Shown here piece by piece: positions 9,950 through 30,042 of a stretch of DNA of 64,000 nt. Below the pieces are notes generated by a model. That model saw only the letters and a program-made list of their open reading frames with translations. It made no database searches and was not told the DNA's origin. This stretch comes from Agromyces sp. Root81. GTDB taxonomy: Bacteria; Actinomycetota; Actinomycetes; Actinomycetales; Microbacteriaceae. The DNA lies in assembly GCF_001429165.1 (NCBI RefSeq), contig NZ_LMIR01000004.1, positions 310,001-374,000 on the forward strand, written 5' to 3'. Each line of letters begins with the position of its first letter. Position 1 is the first letter of the stretch. A program made the position numbers and the translations under genes.

Positions 9950-9955
9950 GGAGGT

Positions 9956-12112: not shown

Positions 12113-12117
12113 CGGCG

Positions 12118-13733: not shown

Positions 13734-13776
13734 GACATGCAAGCGTAGCGCTCCACGCTGAACGCGCCCTCCTCGA

Positions 13777-13782: not shown

Positions 13783-13788
13783 GGGCGG

Positions 13789-15458: not shown

Positions 15459-15464
15459 ATTCTA
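15459..15464 (-). promoter_or_regulatory. Putative -10 (TAGAAT) for the DUF3039 gene
   Basis: Five of six match to TATAAT, ending 7 nt before the ATG and overlapping the terminal codons of the permease gene. Confidence 0.45.
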
Positions 15465-17036
15465 CGCGCGGATCGAGGCACCGAGGATCTCGGGGCCGCG
15501 GGCGTCGAACACCTTGCCGCCCGCGATCACGCCGATCACGAGCACGGCGAGACCCAGCCCGATGCCGCAGGCGAAGGATGCCGCGTGCCACGCCGGGTCG
15601 ACGAGGATGCCGAGCGCCGCGAACACCACGGCGGGCAGCGCGATGAGGAGCGAGCCGAGCATCGTGATGGACTGCACGAGCGCCGTGATGGTGCCGGTGG
15701 CCTGCGGCTGCTGGAAGGGGCTGTCGCCCGGCTTGACGGCCGGGTAGGGGAATCGGGCCGAGGTGATCGATCCGACGCCGAGCCCGGCCAACAGGAGCGC
15801 GGTGCTCACGCCGAGCAGCGACGGCAGCAGCCGCCAGTCGTTCAGCACGAAGACCGTGACGGCGCTGCCGAGGCCGATGACGAGCACGCCCGCGATGAGC
15901 ACCGGCACGAGCCGGCCGATGCGGTCGGACGCGCCGCGCACACCTGAGACGACGTGCAGCCAGACGGCGGTGGAGTCGTAGGCGGTGTCGTTGTGCAGGC
16001 TCCAGCCGAGGAAGAGGCACATGAGCGGCACCGGGATGAGCCAGAGGTAGTCGGTCGGCACGCCGGCGAGGCTGAGCGGCACCAGCACGATGACGGGCAC
16101 GATCGGCACCATGACGAGCGAGACCCAGTAGCGGGCGTCGCGGAACCAGTACGTGAAGCTGCGCGCTGCGATGGCCCCCGCGACGCCGTGCGGCAGCCGG
16201 TCGAACCATCCGAGTCCGCGGTAGCTCTTGGCCGAGGCCTCACGGCCCGGCGTCACGAGCATCCGGGCGACGAGAGACTGCCAGCCGAACCAGATGACCA
16301 CGAGGGTCGCGGCTGCGATGAGGAGCTTCAGGACTGCGGGGCCCCATTGACCGCTCGCCGCGTCGCCCGGAATCGCGAAGACGGCGCCGAGCGGCGTCCA
16401 CGAGAGCACGCCGGCGAGCGACTCCAGGACCTGCACACCGGAGCTCGCCCAGTCGACCGAGACGAGCACGACGATGAGCGGCGAGGCCATGACGATGAGC
16501 AGCAGGCCGAGCACTCCGCTGAGTTCGCGGGCACGCCGGGTCGCGAGCAGCAGCGAGGCGAGCCCGGTCGAGACTCGCGCCAGCAGCAGGCAGGTGGCGA
16601 ACGCCATCGCCGCTGCGATGAGCGCGAGCAGGGTCTCCCCGACGCCGCGCGACCAGGTGACCACCGTGCCGAGGAGCACGATCGCGAGCACGAGCGCGGG
16701 GATGCCGACGACGGCGGCGACCGCGAGGCCGATCGCGAGCGAGCGGTCGGGCAGGCCGAAGAGCGAGAAGCGCCGGGGATCCATCGTGTCGTCGACGCCG
16801 AAGATCAGCGGCACGATGATGAAGCCGAGCACGGTGACCGCACCGGCGACGACGAAGGCGTCGCGGATGAGCTCCACGTCAGGGGCGAAGCGCAGGCCCA
16901 CGAGCGAGGCGAACAGCAGCGCTGCCAGCCCCAGTCCGTAGATCAGCCCGATGACGATGCCGACGACCTGCCAGGGGCTGCGTCGGAAAATGTTCCCGAG
17001 CAAGCGCAGTTTCAGTCGGAGAAACTGTGCTGTCAT
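15462..17036 (-). CDS. ABC-2 exporter permease, separated from its ATPase gene by an inserted element
   Basis: 524 residues with about 12 hydrophobic segments and an N-terminal QFLRLKLRLLGN amphipathic stretch typical of ABC-2 permeases that pair with single-domain ATPases. Its natural partner is the ATPase gene ending at 28309: the last 16 bases of that gene and codons 3-8 of this one are the same DNA. The first two codons (ATG ACA) and the GGGGAG ribosome site come from the inserted element; before insertion the gene would have begun MVAQFLRL inside the end of the ATPase gene. No clear promoter is visible between the element border and the start. Substrate unknown. Confidence 0.88.
   Translation of the reverse strand: MTAQFLRLKLRLLGNIFRRSPWQVVGIVIGLIYGLGLAALLFASLVGLRFAPDVELIRDAFVVAGAVTVLGFIIVPLIFGVDDTMDPRRFSLFGLPDRSLAIGLAVAAVVGIPALVLAIVLLGTVVTWSRGVGETLLALIAAAMAFATCLLLARVSTGLASLLLATRRARELSGVLGLLLIVMASPLIVVLVSVDWASSGVQVLESLAGVLSWTPLGAVFAIPGDAASGQWGPAVLKLLIAAATLVVIWFGWQSLVARMLVTPGREASAKSYRGLGWFDRLPHGVAGAIAARSFTYWFRDARYWVSLVMVPIVPVIVLVPLSLAGVPTDYLWLIPVPLMCLFLGWSLHNDTAYDSTAVWLHVVSGVRGASDRIGRLVPVLIAGVLVIGLGSAVTVFVLNDWRLLPSLLGVSTALLLAGLGVGSITSARFPYPAVKPGDSPFQQPQATGTITALVQSITMLGSLLIALPAVVFAALGILVDPAWHAASFACGIGLGLAVLVIGVIAGGKVFDARGPEILGASIRA
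17012..17030. repeat. attL core direct repeat
   Basis: TCAGTCGGAGAAACTGTGC, identical to the copy at the other end. Here it sits in a fuller core: AGTTTC (17008-17013), a 7-bp centre AGTCGGA, GAAACT (17021-17026). This is the inverted-arm, 7-bp-overlap design of tyrosine recombinase crossover sites. It encodes codons 3-8 of the permease. Confidence 0.85.
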
Positions 17037-17089
17037 ACCCCGACTCCCCAGTGTTTACTGGGCTGTTCGGTCAGTGTCGCCTGTGTCAT

Positions 17090-17108
17090 CCCCGCGAAAA
17101 CCCCGCGC
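17090..17108. repeat. Left subterminal repeat, putative integrase arm site
   Basis: CCCCGCGAAAACCCCGCGC, two CCCCGCG units 11 bp apart. It matches 18 of 19 bases of a repeat near the right end in the same orientation. Confidence 0.5.
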
Positions 17109-17276
17109 TCCCCTTGTCGGTTGTTGCTCCGGTGAGTCTAGTCTCTACGCCTCGTTCCACGAGCGCGGATGTACCCAGTTCGAGGGCAGTGAAGACTTTA
17201 AACACCACGACAATCGCCGTCCGCGTCGGACGTGCACCCTAGGATCTGGCTAGGGAAGCCCATCGAAGGGAATGCA

Positions 17277-19244
17277 GTGAAGCTACGCGCAGTGACGATT
17301 CAGCGGTTCAGGAATTTCGTGGAACCCCAGCGAATCGAGATCGAGGAAGACGTTACAGCGCTGGTCGGGAAGAACGAGTCCGGTAAGACGACCATCCTGA
17401 AGGCACTTCATCGACTGAACCCCGCCAACGGGGAATCCCGTCGATTCGATCTCGTGACCGAGTACCCGCGGTGGCGGTTGGCTAGGGATCGGCGGAACGA
17501 CGCCAACCTAGAGTCCACCTGTCCGGTCAGTGGCGAGTTCCTAGTCGAGCAGTCAGACATCGACGCTCTCGATGGCAAGCTCTCGGCGCCGTTGCTTCCC
17601 ACGAGCAAGGTGATTGCTGAGCGGTCGTACTCCAACAACTACTACGTGTGGATCGAGACTGATCTCGCGGATGTGATCGCCGCAGCTGCGACCGAGGCCT
17701 CGGTCGATGAGGACGACGTCGCTGAGCTTGTCAAGGAACCGACCCTCGATGCCGCCATCGCAAAGGCGAAGGAGCTGGCGAAGACCCTGAAAAGTTCCGA
17801 AGCTGCACGATCGAAAGCCGTCGGATCGTTCCCGGCCGCAGCCGAGAAGTACCGCTACCACTTCGGCTCGGGGGCTCCTATCGAGCAGGAGCAGCGGGAG
17901 GCAATCGCCAGATTGATTCCGAAATTCTTCTACTTCTCCAACTACAGCGTTCTGCCCGGCGAGACCGATCTGACCGAGCTCTCTCGCAAGCTAGACGCCG
18001 GTGAAGAGCTACACGAGCAGGAGCAGACAGTCGTGTCGCTCCTCGCGCATGCGGGCGTGGCGCCGGAAGACTTCTTGGATTCGAACTACGACAGCCGAAA
18101 GGCCGAACTTCAAGCAGCTGCGGGAGACCTCAGCAGCGAGGTATTCAAGTACTGGAAGGTCAACACAGACCTCGCGGTGGTCTTCGGGGACGACAACGTA
18201 TCCGTGCTAAACCCGGCAACGAACACGCCTGAGAATCACCGCATACTGAAGATCGAGCTTCGCGACGCGCGGCATGGTGACGTCGAAACGAACTTCTCGA
18301 CTCGGTCTACCGGGTTCCAGTGGTTCTTCTCGTTCTTCGCCGCGTTCAGCGAGTATCTCCACACGGACAACCCCGTGATTGTGCTGTTGGACGAGCCGGG
18401 TACGAGCCTCCACGGCGAGGCACAAAAGGATTTCGTCGACTATATCTTCAACGAGCTCGGGGCATCAAAGCAAACGCTCTACACAACCCACTCACAGTTC
18501 ATGATCGACCCTGAGGTGTACGAAAAGCTGCGGGCCGTTCACGACAAGGCAACTCGCGAAGACAAGGAGGGAGGCGTCGCCGTGACGCACGTCAGCTTGT
18601 CCGCTGACCGCGACACGATCCTGCCAGTCGAGTCAGCACTGGGCTACACGATTAGCCAGCACCTGTTCCTCGGCTCTGGCCCACACCTCGCAGTCGAGGG
18701 CAGCAGCGACTTCATCTATCTCATGCGGCTTAGCGCGTACATGGAGCAGAACGGCAAGACTCCGCTTAGCCCCAAGCTCGCGATCATCCCGGTCGGCGGC
18801 ATCTCGAATATGCCAGCGTTCGTCGCCCTGATGGGCCGTCGGCTGAAAGTCTCGGCACTAGTCGACGGTGCGACTACGGCCGCCATCGTCGCACGGTCGC
18901 GCAAGGCAGCCGTGGAGAACGGCGTCGACCCGAAGACGATCGTCACGATCGGAGACATCGACTCGACATTACCCGCGACGGCGGACATCGAGGATTTGTT
19001 CGCGCCGTCTGATTATCTGCGTCTGTACAACTGGGCCTTTGGCCGCAGCGTGAAGGAATCAGACCTCCCGGCGACTCCGGTGCCGATCATCAAGAAACTC
19101 CTCGATCTGCACGGCGCGTTCGATCACGCGCTTCCGGCTCATGCCCTGACTGACAATCAGCCCGAGTTCTTCGCGTCGATCAGCTCCGACACGGTCGAAC
19201 GATTCGAGAAGGCGTTCTTGAAGTTGAACGAGGCCATCGAGTAG
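17277..19244 (+). CDS. OLD-family ATPase/TOPRIM nuclease
   Basis: 655 residues. N-terminal ABC-type ATPase with Walker A GKNESGKT (residues 31-38), Walker B LLDEP (D372-E373), a D-loop GTSLHGE and switch THSQF near 404. The C-terminal TOPRIM domain has VEGSSD (E474), LVDG (D530) and DIEDLF (E572), the acidic residues expected of an OLD nuclease. These proteins cut DNA and act in phage interference (P2 Old, GajA of Gabija). There is no UvrD-like GajB next to it; instead a small HEPN-motif gene starts 4 nt after its stop. GTG start with AAGGGA upstream. Coding from the left end of the element is consistent with a cargo defence gene; activity is not shown here. Confidence 0.88.
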   Translation: MKLRAVTIQRFRNFVEPQRIEIEEDVTALVGKNESGKTTILKALHRLNPANGESRRFDLVTEYPRWRLARDRRNDANLESTCPVSGEFLVEQSDIDALDGKLSAPLLPTSKVIAERSYSNNYYVWIETDLADVIAAAATEASVDEDDVAELVKEPTLDAAIAKAKELAKTLKSSEAARSKAVGSFPAAAEKYRYHFGSGAPIEQEQREAIARLIPKFFYFSNYSVLPGETDLTELSRKLDAGEELHEQEQTVVSLLAHAGVAPEDFLDSNYDSRKAELQAAAGDLSSEVFKYWKVNTDLAVVFGDDNVSVLNPATNTPENHRILKIELRDARHGDVETNFSTRSTGFQWFFSFFAAFSEYLHTDNPVIVLLDEPGTSLHGEAQKDFVDYIFNELGASKQTLYTTHSQFMIDPEVYEKLRAVHDKATREDKEGGVAVTHVSLSADRDTILPVESALGYTISQHLFLGSGPHLAVEGSSDFIYLMRLSAYMEQNGKTPLSPKLAIIPVGGISNMPAFVALMGRRLKVSALVDGATTAAIVARSRKAAVENGVDPKTIVTIGDIDSTLPATADIEDLFAPSDYLRLYNWAFGRSVKESDLPATPVPIIKKLLDLHGAFDHALPAHALTDNQPEFFASISSDTVERFEKAFLKLNEAIE

Positions 19245-19248
19245 CCCG

Positions 19249-19815
19249 GTGGAAGAGCCGATCGGCTCGCCGGAGTTAGAGCGCGAGCTTCTGGTCATGC
19301 GTGAAGACGACCTCGACGACGCGGACTACCAAGTGCGAGAGGTCTACGCGCAGTACGGCCTGACCAACTACTCGTCTCAGGTGTTGGAGAAGGGGATCCT
19401 CAACACGCTTGTGTTGAAGGCCAATTCCGAGTCGCCCACGCCAACCGCGCAGAACTTCGACGTGCTCTTTGCGAAGTATGCGCGGCTGCCCTTCGGTCAA
19501 TTGCTTGCCTCATTCCAGAAGGCGCTGCCGGCGGAGACCGAGGCCTACGACGTACTCGCACGCGCTTTGCCCTTGCGAAACTTCATCGCTCACACCTTCT
19601 TCTGGGATCGTGCGGTGGACTTCCACTCGTTCTCAGGGCGTGAGGCGATGTTGTCCGAGTTGATGAAAGCTCGCGAGGTGTTCGAGTCTGCAGATGCTCT
19701 CGTAAATCAGGTCACGCGACGCGTTGCCGCTGCCGCTGGCATCGATGCCGACACCTTCGATCGCAGGCTTGCAGAGGCAACCGACGACCTGCACGCTCGC
19801 ATCCCAACCGACTAG
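19249..19815 (+). CDS. HEPN-motif partner of the OLD nuclease
   Basis: 188 residues, mostly helical by composition, no membrane segment. RNFIAH at 110-115 fits the R-x4-H signature of HEPN ribonucleases with the common Asn after Arg, so an RNA-cleaving or nucleotide-modifying role is possible. It begins 4 nt after the OLD gene and must be co-translated with it. Its TAG overlaps the convergent integrase stop by 4 bases. I do not recognise a named family. It could alternatively be a non-catalytic adaptor, since RNxxxH also occurs in inert HEPN-fold proteins. Confidence 0.7.
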   Translation: MEEPIGSPELERELLVMREDDLDDADYQVREVYAQYGLTNYSSQVLEKGILNTLVLKANSESPTPTAQNFDVLFAKYARLPFGQLLASFQKALPAETEAYDVLARALPLRNFIAHTFFWDRAVDFHSFSGREAMLSELMKAREVFESADALVNQVTRRVAAAAGIDADTFDRRLAEATDDLHARIPTD

Positions 19816-20969
19816 CCTTCGGCGGCGAACGCCTCGAACATCTCGATCTGCGTGGCGTAGTCGCTCGGGTACAGGTGCGCGTAGATCGTGTCTGTAGTCG
19901 AGACGTTCGCGTGGCCCATCCAGCGCGACACCTTCCACGGCTGGAAGCCTGCGGCGAGCATGAGGCTCGCGAAGGTGTGGCGGAGGTCGTGAAAGCGCAT
20001 GTGCGGCGTGACCCCGAGTCGCTTGGCTGCGGGGACAAGGTGGCCCATCCGAACCGCCGTCGTGGACACCGGGCGAGAGAAGTCGAGCGGGCTGCTGTCG
20101 GCGGGGTGCGGTCCGAACCGGAGCCCTGCCCAGAACAGAGCGTCGGGGTCGCCGCTCTTGGGGTGCTGCACGAGGTAGAGCCTCAGGTCTGCCGTCAAGC
20201 TGCGCGACAGTAGCGGCACGTCTCGCGACGACCGGGCAGACTTCGGCGGAACCACGGTCCACTCCCCCGCGATCCGCTTGAGCGTCCGGCGAACCTCCAC
20301 ATGGCCGGCTGACAGGTTGAGGTCGCGAATCCGCAGACCTGCGATCTCGGCTGCGCGGAGCCCGGTGTTCGCGGCGAAGCGGATGAGCAGCCCGTACTGC
20401 GAGCCGGGCGCGTGGCGGTCGACCTCGGCAGCGACAGCCTCCACCTCAGCGATGGTCAGGAAGACCGGCTTGAAGCTCTCCCGGTGGACCATCCGGGGCA
20501 GGATGACTGCGGGAGACGGGTTGTGCGCGATGATGCGATGCTTCACGGCGAACGTGAACACCTTGTTCACTGCGATGTAGTGGTTCCGGATGGTATTCGG
20601 GGCGAGCCCTTCTCCGGCGAGCGCGGCCACCCACGCCTGAACGCTGGCGGAGTCCACCCGCGCGATCCGCTGCCCACCGAAGGTGTCGTAGATGCGCCCG
20701 TTGTAGAGCGCCTCGTACTGGAGAAGCGTGCCGCGCTTGAGGCGAGGAGCCTGCGCCGCAAGCATGGCCTCTGCGACCTCGCGGAACGTCTTGCCGCGCG
20801 TCAGCGCCTCGGTTGTCGCGCCGGTCTCCTTTGCAGTCTCGACCTTGTGCGCGTGCCGCTCAGCGTCGCGCTTCGCGGTGAAGGTGCGCTGCCGGTCCTT
20901 GCCGCCCTCACGCCAACGCACTTCGTAGGCTTTGCCGCCCTTCCGCGTGACCTCGCGAACGTGTGCCAT
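19812..20969 (-). CDS. int: Tyrosine integrase of the element
   Basis: 385 residues. N-terminal arm-binding region, SAM-like core-binding domain (about 70-160) and catalytic domain with R (TGLRAAEI), HxxR (HDLRH), GH (MGHANVS) and the nucleophile Tyr in TDTIYAHLYP. Should catalyse integration at the 7-bp overlap core at the element ends. The ATG at 20969 shares its A with the stop of a 37-codon ORF (TGATG), which supports this start over the GTG at 20996. Last gene of a leftward cassette with that ORF and the serine recombinase. Confidence 0.93.
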   Translation of the reverse strand: MAHVREVTRKGGKAYEVRWREGGKDRQRTFTAKRDAERHAHKVETAKETGATTEALTRGKTFREVAEAMLAAQAPRLKRGTLLQYEALYNGRIYDTFGGQRIARVDSASVQAWVAALAGEGLAPNTIRNHYIAVNKVFTFAVKHRIIAHNPSPAVILPRMVHRESFKPVFLTIAEVEAVAAEVDRHAPGSQYGLLIRFAANTGLRAAEIAGLRIRDLNLSAGHVEVRRTLKRIAGEWTVVPPKSARSSRDVPLLSRSLTADLRLYLVQHPKSGDPDALFWAGLRFGPHPADSSPLDFSRPVSTTAVRMGHLVPAAKRLGVTPHMRFHDLRHTFASLMLAAGFQPWKVSRWMGHANVSTTDTIYAHLYPSDYATQIEMFEAFAAEG

Positions 20970-21082
20970 CAGCGGTTCGCCACTCGGAAGCCGCACTGCA
21001 CGAGAATGACGGCGATCTGCCGGTTCGTGTATCCGGCGCGCTCCATGATCCGGATGATGTCGCCGGGCGTCATGGCGGTCAT
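20969..21082 (-). CDS. 37-residue ORF locked between two recombinase genes
   Basis: Begins MTAMTPGDIIRIME and ends VQCGFRVANR. Its ATG overlaps the stop of the serine recombinase (ATGA) and its TGA overlaps the integrase ATG (TGATG), so it is read by coupled translation if the cassette is expressed. The TNRQIAVILVQCGF stretch could form a short helix-turn-helix. No family recognised; it may be a regulator, a structural coupling peptide or a relic. Confidence 0.55.
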   Translation of the reverse strand: MTAMTPGDIIRIMERAGYTNRQIAVILVQCGFRVANR

Positions 21083-21738
21083 GCCGCGACCCCTTCCCAC
21101 CGGCGGACTACGCCACCGACGACAGTGTGCGTCCATCTCCCGGAGCCGCTCACGGTCGGCACCCCCTCGCTCTCCAGCCGCCGGGCGATGGCCGAGTACG
21201 AGAGTCCCGCCCTGTGGTGTTGCAGGATCGCGGCCTGCACGTCGGCGCTGATCTGGGAGGGCTTGCCGAGTTGAATACCTTCGGCCTTCCGAACAGCGAG
21301 GGCTGCTGAGGTGCGCTCACCGATGACCTCGCGCTCGAACTGAGCGAACTGCATCATCACCCCAGCGAGCATCCGGCCGACCGCGGTGCCCGTGTCGAGG
21401 TCGAAGTCCAGCACGGCGATTGCCCACCGGTGGCGACGGGACACGTCGAGAAGCTCTCCGAAGTCGATGACCGAACGTGAGAGCCGGTCGAGCTTCGCCA
21501 CGACGAGACCGTCCGCTGTGCGGCGCTTCCGGGTGCGTAGCTCTCGGAGCGCTCCTGCGAGGCCCGGACGGTTCGTGTCCTTGCCGGAGAGTCCATCGTC
21601 CTCGTACCAGCCGACGATTTCCCAGCCCTTCGCGATTGCGGCGGCCGTGATCGCTTCTCGCTGCGCCTCGATGCCGAGCGAGGTCTCTCGGTTCCGATCA
21701 GCGCGGCTGACTCTGAGGTAGGCGAGCATCCTCGTCAT
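21079..21738 (-). CDS. Small serine recombinase (resolvase/invertase)
   Basis: 219 residues. N-terminal resolvase domain with YLRVS (catalytic Ser 11), DGLSGKDTNRPGL, and KLDRLSRS carrying the conserved Arg residues, then a C-terminal Hin-type HTH (GLSYSAIARRLESEGVPTVSG). Size and domain order match Tn3-resolvase/DNA-invertase enzymes rather than large phage integrases. GGAGAC precedes the ATG. Overlaps the next ORF by ATGA. Possible roles are resolving dimers of the excised circle or inverting a segment; no inverted repeat pair of res type was recognised. Confidence 0.92.
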   Translation of the reverse strand: MTRMLAYLRVSRADRNRETSLGIEAQREAITAAAIAKGWEIVGWYEDDGLSGKDTNRPGLAGALRELRTRKRRTADGLVVAKLDRLSRSVIDFGELLDVSRRHRWAIAVLDFDLDTGTAVGRMLAGVMMQFAQFEREVIGERTSAALAVRKAEGIQLGKPSQISADVQAAILQHHRAGLSYSAIARRLESEGVPTVSGSGRWTHTVVGGVVRRWEGVAA

Positions 21739-21931
21739 CGTGTCTCCTTTGGTCGTTTCGGATCGGTGTCGGACGTCACCGCTCGGGAAAGCGAACCCTG
21801 ACAACAGCTGCATCACTACTCGTCGCGGCGAATCAGAGCTGCTGGCGATGTAGGGCCGTATCGCGCGGTACGCCAGCCCCGCGCCTGCCTTCCTGCCGTA
21901 CTCGCCGCAGATCGCCAGCAGATCGCAGCCG

Positions 21932-22510
21932 TCATCGCTGCCTCGCTCGATCCGGGCGTAGGGGCTTCAGCCGGCTCGGGTTCGGCTCGTACCAGGCCGG
22001 TGCCTCGCTGCCCTCGGAGGGGAGCGTCGGGGCCTGGCCCTGCCGCTTGAGGCGGGCGCGGGCCGCGTCCCGTTCAATGGCTGCGTCGTCGCGGGCGGGA
22101 TCGTCTTCCACAACCTCGGCGTCAACGATGTCGGCGGGGTCAGGATCCTCGACAGTGATGTACTCGATCATCCCGGTGGCTTCGAGAGCGAGCTCCCATG
22201 CGGGCTTCACGCCGACCTCGATAGCGACCTGCTGAGTGCCGACGATATTCGCCCGGTCGAGCAGGTCACGTGCGGCGGCGAGTTGGACGTTGTAGGGCAC
22301 TTTCTTGTCTTGCATGATCTGCACCAGACGAGCCGCCGCGCGGTCGCTCGCTTCAAGAATCCGCACCTGAGCAGCCGCCCGAACCTGAGGCGCTGCCCCT
22401 CCATGCATCCTGCAAACCATCGAGCCCGTCATCGGCGGATTCCGACATGGCTCACCGTCAGACCTCCTCCGTGCCTTGCATAGGGTCGGGTCTTGCATCA
22501 GCTCATTCAT
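21932..22510 (-). CDS. Phage-type zinc protein, possible terminase small-subunit-like
   Basis: 192 residues. The N-terminus has a zinc-binding-like set C11, C22, C33, H36 followed by GGAAPQVRAAA, a pattern common in actinophage and prophage proteins (C-x10-C-x10-CRMHGG). A helical middle region and an acidic, Pro-rich tail follow. In phage genomes such proteins often lie near packaging or DNA-metabolism genes; a TerS role would fit a satellite that hijacks packaging, but this is inference. Divides the recombinase cassette from the replication gene, with gaps of about 190 and 110 bp. Confidence 0.6.
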   Translation of the reverse strand: MNELMQDPTLCKARRRSDGEPCRNPPMTGSMVCRMHGGAAPQVRAAAQVRILEASDRAAARLVQIMQDKKVPYNVQLAAARDLLDRANIVGTQQVAIEVGVKPAWELALEATGMIEYITVEDPDPADIVDAEVVEDDPARDDAAIERDAARARLKRQGQAPTLPSEGSEAPAWYEPNPSRLKPLRPDRARQR

Positions 22511-22623
22511 CTACTTCTCCACTTCTGTCGTTCTTGTTCTGGACGGTGAACCCAGCCGAGCAACACGACGCCGACACGTCGTACCAAGTGATGTCGCTCG
22601 GCTGGGGGCTTGTGGGACGGGGC

Positions 22624-24666
22624 TCACGATGGGACCCCGTCAGGTTCGGCCTTCCGCCGATTCCGTCTCTTGATAACGTGCTCGCCCGAAGAAGTCGCGA
22701 AGGCCTCCGTGTTCAAAATTCCGACTTCTTCGGTGTTTCCGCGGAATTCTTCGGCACGGTCGATTTCTTCGGAGACCCACTCCCAGCCGCCGCCCATGCC
22801 GGTCTTCACGGACTGAATCGGAGGGCGGCTCTTCCGCCTTGCGCGGGTCAGCTGGGACTCGGTGAACCCCGCCTGCTTCCCGGCCTCGATTCCGTCGGTG
22901 GCGGCCACACGACCGCCCGATGCACGCATGAAGTCCGCCAGCCACTCCGCCACCTCGTTGGTTTCGCCGAGGGGTCGGTTGATGATCTGCGCGACGGTGG
23001 TGGTCGTCTCGCCGATGATGCGAACGCGGGCGACGTGCCCGATGTCGCCGTCATCGAGCTCTACGACGGTGTCCACGAGTTCGTACGCGAGAGAGTGCTC
23101 GATCTCGCGGGAGTAGTTGCCCTTGTCCTGTGACATGACGATCTCGCCGCTGTCGTCGTCGCGGGCGAACAGCAACACGGCGCGCGCGGCGTCTCGGTAG
23201 GCGTGGCTACCGGAGAGCTTGTCGGAGGCGTTACCGGCGCCCTTGTTGAAGTGCATGATGCCGACGACAACGGCGTCTGTTTCACCGGCGATCTTCGCGA
23301 GCGGGTCGAGAACCATTCGTACGATCTCGCGCTTGTGGTCGTCGCCTTGGATCGTGGAAGTGATCGGATCGAGGATGACGAGCACAGGGGCGGTCTGCTG
23401 CTGAATCGCATCAAGGATCAGCGGTGCGTCTTCGGGCAGGTTTGGCACGCGCTCGCCGGTCTCCGCGTCTTCGGTGAACCCGATGGAGAGTTGATAGAAC
23501 CGCGTCATGTCCGCGCCCGCCGCGATGAGGCGAGGCTTCATCTGGGTCTCCCAGTGATCCTCGACGCTGACGTAAAGCACGACAACTCGCTCGCCTTTGA
23601 GGTCACCGTCGAGACGACCATGCTGGGCCTCCACAGCCAGCCAGATCGCGAAGCTCGACTTTCCGACACCGCCACGCCCAGCGAAAAGGGTGATCGCGCC
23701 GAGCGGGATTCGATCTGTCCAGAGGAACTTCTGGCGCCGCGAAATGATGTCGGCGGCGGCCCGAAGCACCACCCGACCCGGCGCCGAAGAATTCCGCGTG
23801 TTCTCGGAAGAAGTCGCCTTTGTGAGCGCGGCGTTCTTGGCGACGTCTTCGGCGGCGTTCTTCAGGTCGGTCAGCGCACTCACGGACGCCGGAATGAACT
23901 CGTCCATGCCGTGGTCACCGACATGGTCGGCGGCATCCTTCCCAGCCGCAGGCAGACACAGCTCAACCTCAACTCCGACGTCGCGAACTGAGTCGTAGAC
24001 CTTGATGGCGTGCTTGTATCCAGCAAGGTCACGGTCGGCCACGATCCGGATCGTGCCCACGAATCCGGCGAGATGAGCGGAGTGCTCCGAGGTCCACTTG
24101 CCTGCGCCGCCGTGGTTGCACGTCGCAACAGTGAACGGACCGTAGGCGGCGCGCATCGCCTGGCAATCCTTCTCGCCCTCAACGATCCAGATCACATCGT
24201 CGGCCCTACCGTGAGCTACCAGCTCGGCAACGTCCGGCAGGTTGTATGGCACTGGCTTGATGCCCTGCATGTTCTTGATGCGCCGCTCGGGATGCCTCGG
24301 GTCGGGCCGCTGCTGGTAGAAGCTCTTTGGATCGGTTCGGACAACCTCGTAGAGCAAGAGCCCGTCTTCGTCCTCGTACCTGTAGGTATCAACGATGGTG
24401 CGCGGCTGTTCGAGGTCTTTCCATGTCAGATCAAGCGCGGCGAGCACGTCGACCGAGTCGCATCCGGCGTGGCACTTCAGGATGACTCTGCTGTCGCCCC
24501 AGCCGACGGAGAGCGACGGGTTGTCGTCGTCGTGTGCAGGGCAGGGAATTGTGTACTGGTCGCCAACGCCTTCAATGACTCGATAGCGATGGTGATTTGG
24601 CAACATGACACGCTCGGCGGTCATGAGGAACAGTGCCAGTGGGCGTGGCACTTCACGCGCAGTCAC
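22624..24666 (-). CDS. Primase-helicase (zinc finger, TOPRIM, RecA-like ATPase)
   Basis: 680 residues, probable replication initiator of the element. A DnaG-like zinc finger (CPAHDDDNPSL, CHAGC) lies at about 42-70, a TOPRIM domain with VEGEKD and VADRD at about 165-220, a RepA/AAA_25-type ATPase with Walker A GRGGVGKSS near 335, Walker B VLVILDP and a later DNA-binding region. This order is typical of plasmid, phage and satellite primase-helicases. GTG start 9 nt after the HTH gene stop, with TAGGCGA upstream; an internal ATG 14 codons later is possible. Confidence 0.87.
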   Translation of the reverse strand: MTAREVPRPLALFLMTAERVMLPNHHRYRVIEGVGDQYTIPCPAHDDDNPSLSVGWGDSRVILKCHAGCDSVDVLAALDLTWKDLEQPRTIVDTYRYEDEDGLLLYEVVRTDPKSFYQQRPDPRHPERRIKNMQGIKPVPYNLPDVAELVAHGRADDVIWIVEGEKDCQAMRAAYGPFTVATCNHGGAGKWTSEHSAHLAGFVGTIRIVADRDLAGYKHAIKVYDSVRDVGVEVELCLPAAGKDAADHVGDHGMDEFIPASVSALTDLKNAAEDVAKNAALTKATSSENTRNSSAPGRVVLRAAADIISRRQKFLWTDRIPLGAITLFAGRGGVGKSSFAIWLAVEAQHGRLDGDLKGERVVVLYVSVEDHWETQMKPRLIAAGADMTRFYQLSIGFTEDAETGERVPNLPEDAPLILDAIQQQTAPVLVILDPITSTIQGDDHKREIVRMVLDPLAKIAGETDAVVVGIMHFNKGAGNASDKLSGSHAYRDAARAVLLFARDDDSGEIVMSQDKGNYSREIEHSLAYELVDTVVELDDGDIGHVARVRIIGETTTTVAQIINRPLGETNEVAEWLADFMRASGGRVAATDGIEAGKQAGFTESQLTRARRKSRPPIQSVKTGMGGGWEWVSEEIDRAEEFRGNTEEVGILNTEAFATSSGEHVIKRRNRRKAEPDGVPS

Positions 24667-24674
24667 AGAATCGC

Positions 24675-24890
24675 CTACCGAACTGCGCGGAAGGTGGAGC
24701 GCTCAAGGAATTCGCGAAGGTGCTCGTCGCTGAACTGGACCTTGCCGGCGAGCTTGATGCCCGAGAGCTTGCCCTGTTCACGAGCACGGCGCAATTGGCG
24801 ATCTGTAACGCCGAGCCCTCGTAGAATCGGCGAATCTGGCGCGGTGTAGTAGTCCCAGTATTGCGGGGTACTGGGGTGCTCGATGGACAT
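24675..24890 (-). CDS. Excisionase/MerR-type HTH DNA-binding protein
   Basis: 71 residues. LRGLGVTDRQLRRAREQGKLSGIKLAGKVQF has the winged-helix shape of HTH_17 excisionase-type proteins (read as LGVTDRQLRRAREQG plus the KLAGKVQF wing). GAGGAGA lies at good distance before the ATG. Translated just ahead of the primase gene in a leader-controlled operon. Could serve as excisionase, as replication-gene regulator, or both. Confidence 0.75.
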   Translation of the reverse strand: MSIEHPSTPQYWDYYTAPDSPILRGLGVTDRQLRRAREQGKLSGIKLAGKVQFSDEHLREFLERSTFRAVR

Positions 24891-24934
24891 TCGGTTCTCC
24901 TCTCGGTGAGGAGGACGAAACGCTCGGAGGCAAC

Positions 24935-24989
24935 AAAAAAGACCTCGAAACGTACCGCCCTCTTCGGGTGGTCTTCACGTTTCGGGGTC
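24935..24989 (-). terminator. Intrinsic terminator/attenuator in the leader of the HTH-primase operon
   Basis: Arms 24941-24953 and 24977-24989 pair at 12 of 13 positions, with an inner ACCGCCC/GGGTGGT stem, followed on the minus strand by six T residues. It lies between the promoter and the HTH gene start, so it would end most transcripts early unless antitermination occurs. Confidence 0.75.
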
Positions 24990-25003
24990 CTTCCCCTAGC
25001 TCT

Positions 25004-25019
25004 CCGTAGCGCGCTACGG
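25004..25019. promoter_or_regulatory. Perfect 16-bp palindrome in the HTH-primase leader
   Basis: CCGTAGCGCGCTACGG, 25 bp downstream of the predicted transcription start and just before the attenuator. It may be an operator, or an RNA hairpin that affects attenuation. Confidence 0.5.
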
Positions 25020-25050
25020 CCCAAGCACTTCTGTTCAGTTGTGTGATGCG

Positions 25051-25079
25051 AAGCTACGCACCGGTTCGCTCTGTGTCAA
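25051..25079 (-). promoter_or_regulatory. Sigma-70-type promoter for the HTH-primase operon
   Basis: Minus-strand TTGACA (25079-25074), 17-bp spacer, TAGCTT (25056-25051). Predicted start near 25044, giving a leader of about 150 nt that holds the palindrome and the terminator. Confidence 0.65.
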
Positions 25080-25123
25080 CTCGGGCCGTTGGCGCTCGCC
25101 GGAGTTGAGCGGGCGAATTAGAG

Positions 25124-25642
25124 CTATCGGATTTCACTTACGCGCCGCTCAGCGTGCGAATTTCCAAACTCTGCACATCGCGCGGCGAGCCTCATTCGCC
25201 GGTAGCGTCCGAGCGGTTCGGTTGGCTCACCCGAGATCCAGACGTTGGTGCCGAGGTCGGCGGCGTCCAGCGCTCGGAGCAGTTCCCACCCGACCAAAGC
25301 GCGCACCTGAGCGAACGGGTGACGGCTGCCGAAAACCGACTCCAGTTGCCGAGCGATGTAGTGCCCGCTCGAATGCGGCAGGACGCCTCGGCTGCGGAAC
25401 AGTGCAAGGCGCACGGTCGCCTCGTAGAGAATGCCGGAGCCTTGCGGGCAGTCGAAGGGCTCGGGTGCGTCGATGCGGACGGTGGCGCGCTCAGTGTTGG
25501 TGAGCAGTCGAGTCGGCGTCTCATGACGGGACAGGAGCTCAGCCGGCTCATGTGGATAGTTCAGGCTGCGCTCCCAGTAGGTGGGCAGCGAGTCGTCCGG
25601 ATAGCGGTTCAGCGTAGCGTTGAGCTCGTTGATGATGGGCAT
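25124..25642 (-). CDS. Hypothetical element protein, 172 residues
   Basis: Soluble, Arg- and Glu-rich protein with no recognised motif and no membrane segment. GGAGG at ideal distance before the ATG supports expression. Part of a leftward series of small genes between the ribbon-helix-helix regulator and the primase operon, in the place where phages and satellites keep accessory genes. Confidence 0.65.
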   Translation of the reverse strand: MPIINELNATLNRYPDDSLPTYWERSLNYPHEPAELLSRHETPTRLLTNTERATVRIDAPEPFDCPQGSGILYEATVRLALFRSRGVLPHSSGHYIARQLESVFGSRHPFAQVRALVGWELLRALDAADLGTNVWISGEPTEPLGRYRRMRLAARCAEFGNSHAERRVSEIR

Positions 25643-25706
25643 GTGGTTCCTCCTTCAGGCGGGCGGGTAGCGAGTAGGGCTCCCGCCCGCTGTCCATGTT
25701 CAGGCG

Positions 25707-26141
25707 TCAGATCGGCAGAGTTGGACGGATCAGCGGCCAGTTCGTCATGAGCGCTGAGTAGGCGGCGTGCGGGTCTGCTGCGCGAGCCTGATGCCATTCC
25801 GCCTCGGCTTCTGCGCTTTCGAGAGCAGCGATCGCGTGCTCGGCGTGGCGTCGGAGCGCTTCATACCGGGCCGCGAGCTCTGGGGTAGGGCGAGCGCCGT
25901 CCTTCAGTGGGTATCGGATCTCTTCTGCGAGCGCGTCCACGATCTCCGTGGCCGCCTCGGTGTGGATCGCGCTTGAGTCAAGGAACTGCTGCGCAGTGGC
26001 GACGATCTGTCCTTCGTAGCGCCTGATCCCGTCCATGACGGCGGCGTCCACTGCCGAGACGGCCTCTCGTTCGGCCTCCGTATTCGGAAAGCTCTGCTGG
26101 CGCACGATCTCCCGCGCTTCGTCCGGGTGAATCTTGTCCAT
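25707..26141 (-). CDS. Hypothetical helical element protein, 144 residues
   Basis: Begins MDKIHPDEAREIVRQ. Rich in Ala, Glu and Arg with long predicted helices (AEREAVSAVDAAVMDGIRR) and a Pro-rich C-terminal end. No family recognised. The ATG at 26141 has GGAG 8 nt upstream; an earlier ATG at 26243 would overlap the upstream gene. Confidence 0.65.
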   Translation of the reverse strand: MDKIHPDEAREIVRQQSFPNTEAEREAVSAVDAAVMDGIRRYEGQIVATAQQFLDSSAIHTEAATEIVDALAEEIRYPLKDGARPTPELAARYEALRRHAEHAIAALESAEAEAEWHQARAADPHAAYSALMTNWPLIRPTLPI

Positions 26142-26151
26142 TTCATTGCTC

Positions 26152-26361
26152 CTATCGGGTGCGCTTCTGCGCGAGTTCAGCGACACGGTCACGGGCGGTC
26201 TGGCGCTTGTCGTCCTCGGCGAACGCCTCGGCCCACACTTCATCGAGCTTCGCGAGGGTGTCGCGCAGGGCGTCGGCCTTGGCGCGGTACTGGCCGCGCT
26301 GGCGGTCCAGCCTGGTGGCCATGACCGGCCCCGAGCTGGCCGGGAACTTCGGAAGGGTCAC
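26152..26361 (-). CDS. Hypothetical small basic protein, 69 residues
   Basis: Charged, helical (RLDRQRGQYRAKADALRDTL), probably a coiled coil. The GTG start overlaps the TGA of the ribbon-helix-helix gene by 4 bases (GTGA), with AGGAAT upstream, so the two are coupled. It does not resemble a known toxin. Confidence 0.6.
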   Translation of the reverse strand: MTLPKFPASSGPVMATRLDRQRGQYRAKADALRDTLAKLDEVWAEAFAEDDKRQTARDRVAELAQKRTR

Positions 26362-26591
26362 TGGGATTCCTTTCTCTTCGACGCCGCGAGGCGTCCTCTT
26401 GTGGGAGTGGGTTCAACGCGTGACGTGCTGGCCGGCAGGACGCCCTTCGCGACGAGATAGCCGCGCAGAGCGTCCGTCACGAGCGCCTTCTTCGAGACGC
26501 CCGACATCCGCACAAGACGGGTGAGCGCCCGATCAATGTCGTCGGGGATCAGCTGGTCGAGCCGACTCCCCGGCATTGCGTTAGTTGACAT
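26358..26591 (-). CDS. Ribbon-helix-helix-like DNA-binding regulator
   Basis: 77 residues. LDQLIPDDIDRALTRLVRMSGVSKKALVTDALRGYL fits the strand-helix-helix pattern of CopG/Arc-type proteins (key part RLVRMSGVSKKALVTDAL), with a Pro/Lys-rich tail. A perfect palindrome covers its start codon and TAAAGT lies 6 nt upstream of the ATG, so it is probably a leaderless, self-repressed gene. It may also control the divergent small gene to its right. Confidence 0.7.
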   Translation of the reverse strand: MSTNAMPGSRLDQLIPDDIDRALTRLVRMSGVSKKALVTDALRGYLVAKGVLPASTSRVEPTPTRGRLAASKRKESQ

Positions 26592-26600
26592 AAGTCAACT
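26583..26600. promoter_or_regulatory. Palindromic operator over the ribbon-helix-helix gene start
   Basis: AGTTGAC-ATAA-GTCAACT, perfect 7-bp arms. It covers the ATG and reaches into the TAAAGT -10 (26603-26598). A GTTGAC half-site recurs at 26697-26702, before the divergent gene. Confidence 0.6.
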
Positions 26601-26723
26601 TTACCGGGCGGTCGGCTACCGCCGCTGGAGGCACGAATCGAGGTCTGATCTGGGCGTTATGGACATCCTTGCCGCGCGTGCGGAGAGCGGATCGAGGTTG
26701 ACTTGAGCGCAGGAGGAACCATC

Positions 26724-26933
26724 ATGCGCAAGCGCCCTGAAGACTTTCAACCGTTCGACCCGAACCAGCCCGGCGAGTACTCGTCTCCCGAGTTCGGCCG
26801 CGATCCGATGGGCAACCGTCGACCACTCACCGGCAAGGAGCAGCTACAGGTCATCCGCTCATCCCGCGCCCGGGATCAGTCCCGCGCCCAGGTCGTCCGC
26901 GACATGACCCGAAGGCGCTACCCGAACGGCTGA
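26724..26933 (+). CDS. Hypothetical small protein, 69 residues, divergent from the regulator
   Basis: Very polar; begins MRKRPEDFQPFDPNQPGEYS and is rich in Arg, Pro and Gln, likely disordered with a basic C-terminus. AGGAGG about 7 nt before the ATG is one of the best ribosome sites in the element. One of three genes in the element, besides the OLD-HEPN pair, that reads rightward. Confidence 0.6.
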   Translation: MRKRPEDFQPFDPNQPGEYSSPEFGRDPMGNRRPLTGKEQLQVIRSSRARDQSRAQVVRDMTRRRYPNG

Positions 26934-27069
26934 CCGACTACACGCCGCTGTAAGGCGACGGGGAGGCCAACGCTCGCCGGGCTACCGACCCGCGCCGTTC
27001 GCCACGCAGCGACCGTGCAGCCGACAGAGGAGGCCGGGGGGTTCGGCCCTCCCGGCCTCCGTGCTGCGA

Positions 27070-27297
27070 TCAGAACGGCGTCTCGTCCGAGTACCGAGCC
27101 TCTGGCACGTTCAACCCATCGCCCGGAGGATCCGGGAAATAGTTGCACTTGAACGTCTGGTACGCCTCTTCAAAGAAGACTTCGAACGATGGGCGCGCCT
27201 CCATCGCCTGCCACTGCGTGAACACCACATAGTGCATCGAATCCATGGCATCCGTCACGTGGCCCTGGTACTCGTCCTTGGTGAGCTTGATCTTCAT
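27070..27297 (-). CDS. Hypothetical small acidic protein, 75 residues
   Basis: Begins MKIKLTKDEYQGHVTDAMDS. Acidic and rich in aromatic residues, no membrane segment. AGGGAACC before the ATG supports translation. No family recognised. About 250 bp of apparently non-coding sequence follows to its right, in which I see no clear site. Confidence 0.55.
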   Translation of the reverse strand: MKIKLTKDEYQGHVTDAMDSMHYVVFTQWQAMEARPSFEVFFEEAYQTFKCNYFPDPPGDGLNVPEARYSDETPF

Positions 27298-27550
27298 GCT
27301 GGTTCCCTTCTCGACGCCATGCCCTGTGCGCGGCAGGAGGTAAGACTGCACGCGAAGTCGAGAACTGACAACGAGCCCGAACTGCACCGTTACCGACCGT
27401 CTCTGACTGGCGCGCCACATCCACTGACCGGCGCATCGGTCATCGTCGGTCGGCAGAAGGCGCGCAACGGTTAGCGCCGGGTGGGCGTCGAAAGTCACCT
27501 GCGTTATCGAATCGTTACGGACCGAAAGACGCCCTCGCGACGGGACCAGC

Positions 27551-28078
27551 TCAGGAGAATTGCTTCGCTTTGTGAGCGATTCGATCTTGCTTGACGTCCC
27601 GAAAGAAGGCGTTCGACTGCGGGAGCCAGACGAGCACGATCCCTGCAATCGCCAGAGCCATCACGAGAATGGCGATGCCGTCCAAGATGTACGGCGGAAG
27701 CAGCAAAGCACCGAACAGCACCGTGGCGACGATCCGTGCCCAGTTGAAGCCTCGCCTCAGAAGCAGCGTGAAGGCGACGCGAAGAGCGATCGATATTGCG
27801 CTCACAACAACACCGAAGACGACTGTCGCAATCGCGATCTCCGGCGTCACCTGCAGCTCCTGGCCGTCGCGCTCGAAGCTGTGCACCCACTCCGCCATGT
27901 ACCCGTCCCAGTCGAACACGGCCAGCGACCAGACAACGGTCACCGCCTGAATGATCGACAGGAGCAGCAGAGTCCAGAAGCCCACTTGAACCGCAACGGG
28001 AACCGGGCGGCCGATCTTGAAAGGGTCTGAGGCAGGCCGAAACGCGCGGGCGGGCTTGAGGGCGCTGGAACGTGGCAC
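27551..28078 (-). CDS. Hypothetical four-TM membrane protein near the right end of the element
   Basis: 175 residues with a basic N-terminus, four predicted TM segments (starting near 30, 78, 112 and 132) and a basic tail (RDVKQDRIAHKAKQ). GTG start with TAGCAT 6 nt upstream, suggesting leaderless expression. Its place at the element edge fits a cargo gene or, if paired with other factors, a membrane effector; nothing in the sequence fixes a function. Confidence 0.65.
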   Translation of the reverse strand: MPRSSALKPARAFRPASDPFKIGRPVPVAVQVGFWTLLLLSIIQAVTVVWSLAVFDWDGYMAEWVHSFERDGQELQVTPEIAIATVVFGVVVSAISIALRVAFTLLLRRGFNWARIVATVLFGALLLPPYILDGIAILVMALAIAGIVLVWLPQSNAFFRDVKQDRIAHKAKQFS

Positions 28079-28084
28079 ACACGA

Positions 28085-28090
28085 ATGCTA
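28085..28090 (-). promoter_or_regulatory. Putative -10 (TAGCAT) for the element membrane protein
   Basis: Ends 6 nt before the GTG start. Confidence 0.4.
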
Positions 28091-28140
28091 GTGCGACGAT
28101 TCGATCCGCGCCTCAGGCTGCGCAGTCCCTCGTCAGAAAA

Positions 28141-28159
28141 CCCCGCGAAATCCCCGCGC
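28141..28159. repeat. Right subterminal repeat, putative integrase arm site
   Basis: CCCCGCGAAATCCCCGCGC, one base different from the left subterminal copy and in the same orientation. It lies about 150 bp inside the right att core. Confidence 0.5.
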
Positions 28160-28255
28160 CCGCGCCCCGCTGAGGCGCTCCGGCGCACCCCATCGCCGCC
28201 CGATACGGCCCGGCCTAGAAGGTCCAACTTCCCCGGAATTCCGGGCGAAAGCGGG

Positions 28256-28296
28256 TGACGTGAGGGGTGCTTCGGGCGACGTCGGTTGACGTCAGG
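28256..28296. repeat. Three GACGT repeats next to the right att core
   Basis: GACGT at 28257, 28278 and 28288, spaced 21 and 10 bp, which places them on one DNA face. They are close to the core and could bind the integrase or excisionase. Confidence 0.35.
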
Positions 28297-28308
28297 AAAC
28301 GGCTGCGC

Positions 28309-28327
28309 TCAGTCGGAGAAACTGTGC
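28309..28327. repeat. attR core direct repeat
   Basis: TCAGTCGGAGAAACTGTGC. The first three bases are the stop codon (TGA on the minus strand) of the exporter ATPase, so insertion left that gene complete. The left arm here (GCGCTC) differs from AGTTTC in attL, as expected if it comes from the element. Confidence 0.85.
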
Positions 28328-30042
28328 AACCATTCCATGCCTTCCGCAGCCTTGCGTCCGCCGGCGAGCTCGACGAATCGGTCTTCGAGGGTCTGTCCGG
28401 CCCGTACCTCGTCGAGCGTGCCCGCCGCGAGCACCCGCCCGGCCACGATGATCGCGGCCGAGTCGCAGACGCGCTCGATGAGGTCCATGCCGTGGCTCGA
28501 GAGCACGACCGTGCCGCCGCCCGCGACGTATCGCTCGAGGATCTCGGTGAGGTTCGCCGCCGACACGGGGTCGACCGACTCGAACGGCTCGTCGAGCACG
28601 AGGAGTCGCGGCGAGTGGATCATCGCGCAGGCGAGGGCGATCTTCTTCGTCATGCCGGCCGAGTAGTCGGCGACGAGCCGGTCGACCGCATCGTCGAGGC
28701 CGAATGCCGTGATCAGGTCGGCGCTGCGCTCGCGCACGGTGCGGCTGTCGAGGCCGCGGAGCACGCCCGAGTAGTAGAGGAGCTGCGCACCGGTCAGCCG
28801 GTCGAAGAGCCGCAGCCGGTCGGGCAGCACGCCGGTGGCGTGCTTGGCGGCCTGCGGGTTCGCCCAGGCGTCGATGCCGTGGATGCGCACACTGCCGGCG
28901 TCGGGACGGAGGAGTCCGGTGACCATCGAGAGCGTCGTCGTCTTGCCTGCGCCGTTCGGTCCGACGATGCCGAAGAACGATCCGGCCCGCACGTCGAGGC
29001 TGATGCCGTCGACGGCGGTGTTCTCGCCGAACCGCTTCACGAGTCCCTCGATCGCGAGCACCTTCGGTGCACCGGCCGGCGGAGCCGTGCGCGCAGGTCG
29101 CAGCATGCGCTTCTTGCGCGCTGCCGACTTCTTCGGTGCGGCGATCACCGCGACGGCCTGCGCCGCGCTCCCGGATGCCGCGGGCGCGTCGACGGCCGGA
29201 GCAGCAGGCGCCGACGGGGGCGCAGGGGCCGCCGGCGCTTCGAGCGTGGGCGTCTCGGCGACGGCGGCAGCGCCGGCCGCCACCACGGCGGCGGAGGCCG
29301 CAGCGGCAGCCGCAGCTGGCCGCTTCGGTGCGCGCTCGACGGTGTCCTCGTCGATCTCGGATCGGACCGTGCGGGACTCGGGCGCCACCGGCGGCTCCGA
29401 GACTGTTGCGGCCGAGGTGTCGGGGGCCTTGCGTACCGGGCGCTCGGCCGCGGTCGTCTCCGTGGTCAGCGCGGCGGCGACCCGCTGCGTCTGGCGCTGC
29501 GTCGCCGCGGTCGCGGCCGCTGCGGTGCGTGCGCCGGAGGCGCCAGTGCTCTTCGCCGCGGATGCACGCGGGGTGCGCGCGGTCTTCGCCGCCTCGCCGC
29601 GTGCGGCGGCGGCCTTCGCCGACGCCGTGCGGGATGCGGCCGTGCGCTTGGACGCGGGCGGGCTCTCGAGTGCCTCGCCGTCGGCGGCGGGCTCTGCGGC
29701 CGGCTTCTTCGCCGCGGCGGTCCTGGCTGCTGCGGTCTTCGCGGCGGTCGTCTTGGCCGCGGCCGTCTTGGCCGTCGCCGTCTTCGCGGCGGTGCTCTTC
29801 GCGGCGGTGCTCTTCGCGTCCGTCGTCTTGGCGGCCTCGGTCTTCGCCGCAGCGGTCTTGGCCGCCGTCGTCCTGGCGGCCGGGACCTTCTTCTCCGCGG
29901 TCGTCTTGGGCGCGGTCTTCCGCGCAGGGCGCACGGCCGCCGCCGCCGAGCGCTCCGGCTGGGACTGCGTCGATTCGGACGCCCCCGCGCCGGTGCCTTC
30001 GGCAGTTTCGTCGTCGTGTTCGGAGCGCGAAACAGAAGTCAC
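28309..30042 (-). CDS. ABC exporter ATPase with a long histone H1-like N-terminal extension
   Basis: 577 residues. About residues 333-577 form an ABC ATPase: Walker A GPNGAGKTT (K367), a degenerate signature DYSAGMTKK, Walker B LLVLDEP and switch SSHG. Residues 1-330 are low-complexity: Ala, Lys and Thr repeats (TAAAKT, AAKTTA types) like histone H1 or mycobacterial HupB tails, then Ala/Pro-rich sequence. The partner permease gene now lies 11.3 kb away across the inserted element; before insertion the two overlapped. GTG start 6 nt after TAGGTT. The role of the basic extension is unknown; nucleoid or envelope polymer contact are guesses. Confidence 0.88.
   Translation of the reverse strand: MTSVSRSEHDDETAEGTGAGASESTQSQPERSAAAAVRPARKTAPKTTAEKKVPAARTTAAKTAAAKTEAAKTTDAKSTAAKSTAAKTATAKTAAAKTTAAKTAAARTAAAKKPAAEPAADGEALESPPASKRTAASRTASAKAAAARGEAAKTARTPRASAAKSTGASGARTAAAATAATQRQTQRVAAALTTETTAAERPVRKAPDTSAATVSEPPVAPESRTVRSEIDEDTVERAPKRPAAAAAAASAAVVAAGAAAVAETPTLEAPAAPAPPSAPAAPAVDAPAASGSAAQAVAVIAAPKKSAARKKRMLRPARTAPPAGAPKVLAIEGLVKRFGENTAVDGISLDVRAGSFFGIVGPNGAGKTTTLSMVTGLLRPDAGSVRIHGIDAWANPQAAKHATGVLPDRLRLFDRLTGAQLLYYSGVLRGLDSRTVRERSADLITAFGLDDAVDRLVADYSAGMTKKIALACAMIHSPRLLVLDEPFESVDPVSAANLTEILERYVAGGGTVVLSSHGMDLIERVCDSAAIIVAGRVLAAGTLDEVRAGQTLEDRFVELAGGRKAAEGMEWLHSFSD

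Follow-up and report, generated by a model that had tools for sequence, protein, structure and literature searches.

We report that an 11.3-kb element integrated within an ABC exporter operon of Agromyces sp. Root81 is likely, in our estimation, to belong to a lineage of phage satellites that resemble the phage-inducible chromosomal islands (PICIs); its integration is established by comparison with other genomes, and its packaging by a helper phage is predicted from its genes. The element is probably mobile as well as integrated. We describe it as PICI-like and stop short of calling it a true PICI, since a helper, induction and packaging are predictions from its gene content. That it represents an undescribed satellite lineage of the Microbacteriaceae, which would redirect helper packaging by means of a zinc-knuckle small terminase and in one branch would use a dual-coding overlap in place of a tRNA gene, perhaps also controlling the exporter, seems to us an evenly balanced proposition. 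Positions given below are those of the window, the whole 64,000-nucleotide stretch of DNA that was analysed.

The element is bounded by a 19-bp direct repeat, GCACAGTTTCTCCGACTGA in the minus sense, present at the permease end (attL, 17012..17030, minus strand) and in an exact second copy at the ATPase end (attR, 28309..28327, minus strand), where the final codons of the ATPase gene and its stop fall within it. The initial annotation had reported this repeat at both places, and it is confined to those two in the 4.16-Mb genome, since we found no third copy there when up to one mismatch was allowed. Measured from start to start of the repeat, the element is 11,297 bp long, and its G+C content is 63.4%, compared with 70.0-70.6% in the flanks. 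The AGTTTC and GAAACT arms around a 7-bp centre that had been described for the att core are found in the permease-side copy, which reads GCGCAGTTTC-AGTCGGA-GAAACTGTGC (17004-17030) and has 10-bp arms complementary at 9 of 10 positions around a centre at 17014-17020, with 17004-17011 completing the arms; the description fails for the ATPase-side copy, which has a single good arm only. ARAGORN found no tRNA gene in the 64-kb window, in agreement with the earlier placement of the core outside a tRNA. Insertion of the window element into a tRNA gene was considered and rejected, as was a transposon as the identity of the element.

The host gene at the permease end is a presumed permease gene (15462..17036, minus strand), whose ATG start at 17034-17036 is element-derived. 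Since it matches no Pfam family at 0.01, its naming as a permease follows from where it lies and from the hydrophobic character of its sequence. At the other end, the ABC ATPase gene (28309..30042, minus strand; PF00005, 4.7e-26) retains an intact C-terminus and stop and is unchanged because the core holds its last codons. The occupied permease gene has lost its ATG GTT start and gained ATG ACA or ATG ACG from the element, and its N-terminus reads MTAQFLRL in the window, compared with MVAQFLRL at the empty site. The element also supplies an 18-codon leader ORF (MTQATLTEQPSKHWGVGV*; 17033..17089, minus strand), the TGA of which overlaps the permease ATG. The leader, which begins MTQAT, is conserved: it runs in frame into the permease in a sister element of genome G023 (L069) and in a scar in genome G038, both described below, and the window version is one base shorter and hence a separate ORF. 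Inspection by eye revealed a Shine-Dalgarno-like stretch before the new permease start. A sigma-70 consensus scan of 16900-17400 found no promoter, and given this empty scan we can only infer a permease promoter borne by the element. The OLD-like cargo gene between the integrase and permease genes is transcribed in the direction opposite to the permease, so permease expression needs the 195 bp between the OLD start and the permease start, unless it occurs by read-through. As judged from these reading frames, the att core is dual-coding: it preserves the end of the ATPase, and the permease obtains a new start and leader from the element. The precise insertion described in the initial annotation therefore stands, and what that description lacked is the dual-coding junction at which both genes remain readable. 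An overlap of this kind is a neat solution for integrators, as DNA that codes in two frames is conserved and both genes stay readable.

We searched 60 Agromyces genomes with the permease; 59 have it, and the junction was read in all 59. The end of the ATPase overlaps the start of the permease in 55 of them, forming an empty site with the sequence ATGGTTGCACAGTTTCTCCGACTGAAACTGCGC or a variant, in which the ATPase ends in MEWLHSFSD* and the permease begins MVAQFLRLKLR, with a GTG start in some. Of these empty sites, 32 carry the exact 19-mer and 18 a copy with one mismatch; among the other five, three mismatches occur in 3 sites, and four and six mismatches in 1 site each. The other four junctions comprise two that are occupied (the window and G023), one scar and one that holds another gene. 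The scar, in G038, is a 265-nt gap with both element ends. The remaining junction (G042; L089 10950-17408) is split by one 2152-codon gene, which we take to be rhamnosidase-like, without element genes; it was considered as a third occupant and rejected, being a single unrelated gene and no element. No prophage was seen at the ABC junction in the 59 genomes, a survey that covers this junction as opposed to tRNA sites. Thus, the empty site with overlapping ATPase and permease genes that had been anticipated in relatives is found in 55 of the 59, and the contrary outcome that the initial annotation had envisaged, in which all relatives are occupied and no empty allele exists, is not what the genus displays. 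The same site is also occupied in another strain, G023, by a sister element with different cargo. Among 398 genomes of the family, a sample that includes 10 Agromyces and to which G038 does not belong, the occupied type of permease start is confined to the window and G023. The anatomy of the element and the empty sites demonstrate, at the level of sequence, integration at the core by Int, and the site polymorphism lends indirect support to excision. The empty sites, a second occupant with other cargo and the scar likewise support mobility of the element in evolution.

The element belongs to a family with seven end-to-end members of 9.9-11.7 kb in Agromyces and four other genera of the Microbacteriaceae: the window element, L069 in G023, L070 in G033, L115, L116, L119 and L120. 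Three further loci are not counted among the seven, namely L117, which is cut by a contig start, the 5.6-kb L118, and L101 of Demequina, which has matches to the integrase, resolvase, p178 and p77 only. The gene order p77-p69-p178-p172-xis-primase-zinc protein-resolvase-int is common to the members, with small exceptions. By tblastn, L116 has no xis match and weak p77 and p172 matches, and L119 has no p77 match, with a 71-aa gene in its place; the ORF caller joins the xis match of L119 to the primase gene. A primase-helicase is present in 7/7 members. Five of the seven lie in tRNA genes and are bounded by direct repeats of the tRNA tail of 34-45 bp or longer: L070 in tRNA-Tyr (far repeat copy of 34 bp, giving 11.4 kb), L115 in tRNA-Met (40 bp, 9.9 kb), L116 in tRNA-Thr (44 bp, 10.3 kb), L119 in tRNA-Ser (at least 45 bp, 11.4 kb, with a further 84%-alike copy 2 kb beyond) and L120 in tRNA-Tyr (35 bp, 11.7 kb). 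This prevalence of tRNA sites among the relatives had escaped the initial annotation. Directly after the tRNA, we observed GTAAACACTGGG in L115 (8591-8601) and L119 (15881-15891) and, likewise, GCAAGCACTGGG in L116 (4565-4575). This motif occurs in reversed orientation in a palindrome, CCCAGTGTTTACTGGG (17047..17062, unstranded), that adjoins the permease-side core of the window element, 16 bp inside the core copy, and is possibly a recombinase or regulator site.

The proteins of the sister element in G023 are related to those of the window element to differing degrees (integrase 77% identical, Xis 63%, p77 55%, p178 50%, zinc protein 48%, p69 48%, p172 47% and resolvase 39%), and its cargo differs. 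The window primase has no match in G023 at 1e-3, and the G023 primase is likewise of the Toprim and AAA_25 type. The resolvases of L115 and L069 are 84% identical and their integrases 45%, which argues that modules have been exchanged. The window integrase has matches at E 0.001 in 53 of the 60 Agromyces genomes, and close integrases accompanied by backbone genes are found only in G023 (77%) and G033 (45%); matches without the backbone include those in G034 (39% over 192 residues) and G003 (a 92-residue fragment). The G003 match (L071 9916-10173) is a lone integrase C-terminus, 71-74% identical, and is perhaps the trace of a lost element. Scans of viral contigs yielded nothing for p172 or p178, one distant homologue of the zinc protein and two distant integrases, and p178 of L070 had no match among phages at E 0.1. 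One phage portal family, PF04860, is present in only 1/7 host genomes, so a resident helper is not evident. The searched literature, as represented by the portions available, contains no description of this element family. A further integrase element of the window genome lies at a tRNA-Ser (L124, G000:C2:316001-335000, at about 6900-14500). By eye, its genes include ones for HTH proteins, one for a tail-like protein and one for a helicase of the AAA_25 type, which shares 50% identity with the window primase across 335 residues; this element may be the remnant of a prophage or a different satellite.

The backbone genes of the window element lie on the minus strand. A tyrosine integrase (19812..20996; PF00589, 1.6e-21; phrog_1, 6e-62) is adjoined by a serine resolvase/invertase (21079..21816; PF00239, 1.1e-34), an arrangement found in 7/7 end-to-end members, and the resolvase seems to travel as a module of its own. 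Beyond the zinc protein lies an AAA_25 primase-helicase with a Toprim-like region (22624..24666; AAA_25, 3.6e-25; Toprim_3, 7e-4), which is at most 37% identical to primases of Microbacterium phages, its best-listed relatives. The adjacent HTH_17 excisionase/AlpA-like protein (24675..24890) matches PF12728 at 3.9e-4, below the curated cut-off, and the excisionase family phrog_1840 at 0.0018. The next two genes encode proteins that match no Pfam or PHROG family: p172 (25124..25642), which has homologues in L069, L070 and L115-L120 and an uninformative AF2 model (pLDDT 34.5), and p178 (25707..26141, likely start 26141), the profile of which has matches in 8 of the 398 genomes from the family, spread over 7 of 85 genera, and in 3 of 396 genomes at the order level, with the window and G023 among the matches in both samples. 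The small protein p69 (26152..26361) has no Pfam family and one weak PADLOC match (0.0064), and the first gene of the leftward backbone encodes p77 (26358..26591), a ribbon-helix-helix protein whose RHH_1 match, at 8.5e-4, is just below the cut-off. A small divergent gene, p76 (26703..26933, plus strand), belongs to no Pfam family and has matches in L069 (1.8e-6) and L070 (4.3e-5). The only candidates for a regulator are the protein with the weak HTH_17 match and the ribbon-helix-helix protein. No capsid, tail, relaxase or FtsK/Tra family was found among the scanned element proteins (Pfam for these, PHROGs for ten), and we recognised no capsid-size or interference gene in the element. The integrase, primase-helicase, zinc protein and, weakly, the excisionase-like HTH protein named in the initial annotation are thus confirmed by HMM matches, and its statement that capsid, tail and transfer genes are lacking holds among the scanned proteins. 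The PICI-like size and gene set that it proposed are supported. A conjugative element was rejected as an identity, as no Tra was found among the scanned proteins.

The zinc protein (21932..22510, minus strand; NF041373, HGG_STG, 7.9e-9) has a small-terminase-like core, which makes it a candidate TerS. When the seven-member profile A9 was compared with 177,635 PDB sequences, the only matches below E 0.01 were 7joq (3e-6) and 6w7t (8e-5), both phage small terminases, and the alignment spans ..RLKAAQDILDRAGFGAKQK.. of the profile. We take these two entries to be the TerS structures of the Pseudomonas phages PaP3 and NV1. Structures of TerS from both phages are described in the available part of a published report (PMC7672466). 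The window protein alone matches 7joq at E 0.009, no better in effect than its match to LexA at 0.01, and a three-member profile reaches 0.022; homology to small terminases is therefore detected with the seven-member profile and is weak with a single sequence or the three-member profile. Five members match the TerS family phrog_10899, at up to 9.3e-6, over the zinc motif only, and the L119 protein matches a second TerS family, phrog_2538, at 3.9e-5, over the core. Among the PHROGs, the zinc proteins match phrog_3678 best, a family whose label gives no function, and the TerS-labelled PHROGs are weaker. Koji gp1, the product of a gene directly 5' of TerL, falls in phrog_3678 (1e-71) and matches the zinc-family profile with an HHalign probability of 95%. 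In two Mementomorivirus records, a homologue of the zinc protein lies about 5.6 kb from TerL and does not adjoin it. A control profile of p178 had no terminase or TerS match. AF2 modelled the zinc protein poorly (pLDDT 57). By tblastn against phages, the window protein found nothing at 1e-5, and the L070 protein had matches in 55 records with E values no higher than 1, of which the lowest was 5e-11. The earlier suggestion that the zinc protein may be TerS is thus supported by the PDB and PHROG matches.

Cargo genes lie at both ends of the element. At the permease end, an OLD-like AAA ATPase (17232..19244, plus strand) matches AAA_15 (1.9e-21) and, weakly and below the cut-off, OLD-like_TOPRIM (0.0047), as well as the PADLOC models AriA (5e-22) and Old (2.6e-15). 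The match of this ATPase to phrog_800 ('terminase small subunit', 4.5e-4) covers the P-loop only, and we discount it as one that ATPases in general would give. The gene beside it encodes a 188-aa protein (19249..19815, plus strand) that falls in phrog_12893, without a function label, matches no PADLOC family at 0.1 and carries an Rx4H sequence (RNFIAH), presumably a HEPN-type motif; this pair (17232-19815) is possibly a two-gene defence system that has not been described. At the ATPase end lies a 175-aa hydrophobic, presumably membrane, protein (27551..28078, minus strand) with no family over its cut-off. The other members carry DUF6575 (PD-T4-10_B-like, 3e-8) with a UDG-family protein (L069), the SIR2 protein PDC-S25 (L070, 2.6e-127; L119, 5.1e-141), a Ser/Thr kinase resembling PD-T4-6 (L115), a type II methyltransferase (L116) and a cytosine methyltransferase with Vsr (L120). 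PADLOC defence models, as library matches, are thus found in the cargo of 7/7 members.

These genes suggest how the element might operate. Infection by a helper phage would derepress the leftward operon p77-p69-p178-p172-xis-primase-TerS-resolvase-int, upon which Int and the HTH_17 protein would excise the element as a circle. The primase-helicase would replicate the circle and the resolvase would resolve multimers, while the zinc TerS would steer the large terminase of the helper to element DNA for packaging in helper particles. The cargo at the two ends would protect the host from phages. Of these steps, replication, derepression by a helper and TerS-mediated packaging are ones that we infer from the gene content.

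Several other explanations were weighed against a PICI-like satellite. Passive spread of a defence island by generalised transduction or transformation, with int and xis serving integration only and the zinc protein acting as a DNA-binding regulator, would suit the defence-model matches of the cargo in all seven members, the breadth of the HGG_STG domain and the weakness of the single-sequence evidence for TerS. However, the primase-helicase of every member would be superfluous for passive spread, and the PDB and phrog_2538 matches span the TerS core, beyond the zinc motif, so we regard this explanation as unlikely. We are similarly doubtful of a mobilisable integrative element, either a reduced actinomycete AICE or an IME, that would depend on a conjugative helper in trans and use its primase to replicate after transfer. 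No FtsK/Tra, DUF3631 (RepAM), Prim-Pol or relaxase family was found among the scanned element proteins, a search of 72,556 plasmid records with p172 of L070 found nothing at E 0.01 and the TerS-like protein is kept in 7/7 members, although the size, tRNA targeting and int-xis-rep modules recall AICEs and packaging by phages is a prediction here. A decayed prophage that has lost its structural genes would explain the phage-type integrase, primase and TerS-like protein. Decay is nevertheless very improbable as an origin, given that all seven elements share one compact gene set of 10-12 kb while their cargo and, for the most part, their att sites differ, and that actual decay resembles the scar in G038 or the L118 copy of 5.6 kb.

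In our judgement, phage satellites have received much attention in cocci, enterobacteria and vibrios and less in Actinomycetota. PICIs are defined by helper-dependent induction, packaging and interference. In the available sections of a published account, the criteria for a PICI comprise a gene organisation that is conserved and includes an integrase, a replication module and a master regulator, att sites that are never occupied by prophages, orthologues of genes exclusive to known PICIs, and dependence on a phage for induction, interference and packaging into particles (PMC6092414). The element resembles the PICIs and SaPIs described there in its integrase, replication module, HTH candidate regulator or excisionase and TerS-like gene, and in its phage-resistance-like cargo, lack of structural genes and size within the 10-15 kb range; family members of 9.9-11.7 kb are slightly smaller than the typical PICI of about 12-15 kb (PMC6092414). 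Compared by description as opposed to orthologue sets, it differs in that no Stl/Rpr pair is among its HMM matches, and in having a zinc-type TerS, a conserved serine resolvase, and p172 and p178 without a known family. The PICMIs of Vibrionaceae, in the excerpts available, share the core of int, AlpA and primase, and their AlpA model includes PF12728, which is weakly matched here; the prototype has six genes, whereas our element has more genes, a TerS-like gene and another primase type, and differs in hosts and att sites (PMC10803314).

The AICEs are similar in tRNA targeting, in their int/xis/rep modules and in their actinobacterial hosts, but the FtsK/SpoIIIE-type Tra by which an AICE is recognised, like DUF3631 and Prim-Pol, is unmatched in the scanned element proteins. 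Like the element as we interpret it, MulchRoom and MiniFlayer of Streptomyces are satellites of actinobacterial phages; unlike it, they have genes for a capsid, a portal and the two terminase subunits and are parasites of virulent phages, according to the available part of their description, which also mentions predicted Actinomycetota PICIs with a portal gene and homologues of the satellites (PMC10690885). One survey, as represented by its available part, assumes that many small prophage-like elements of actinobacteria may be satellites (PMC10023795). With its ends defined, a TerS candidate and defence-like cargo that can be exchanged, the seven-member family allows this assumption to be tested in soil bacteria, from whose relatives many phages have been isolated. 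As the nearest literature concerns predicted satellites of Actinomycetota, what is new here is the lineage and its unusual attachment site, and not the kind of system.
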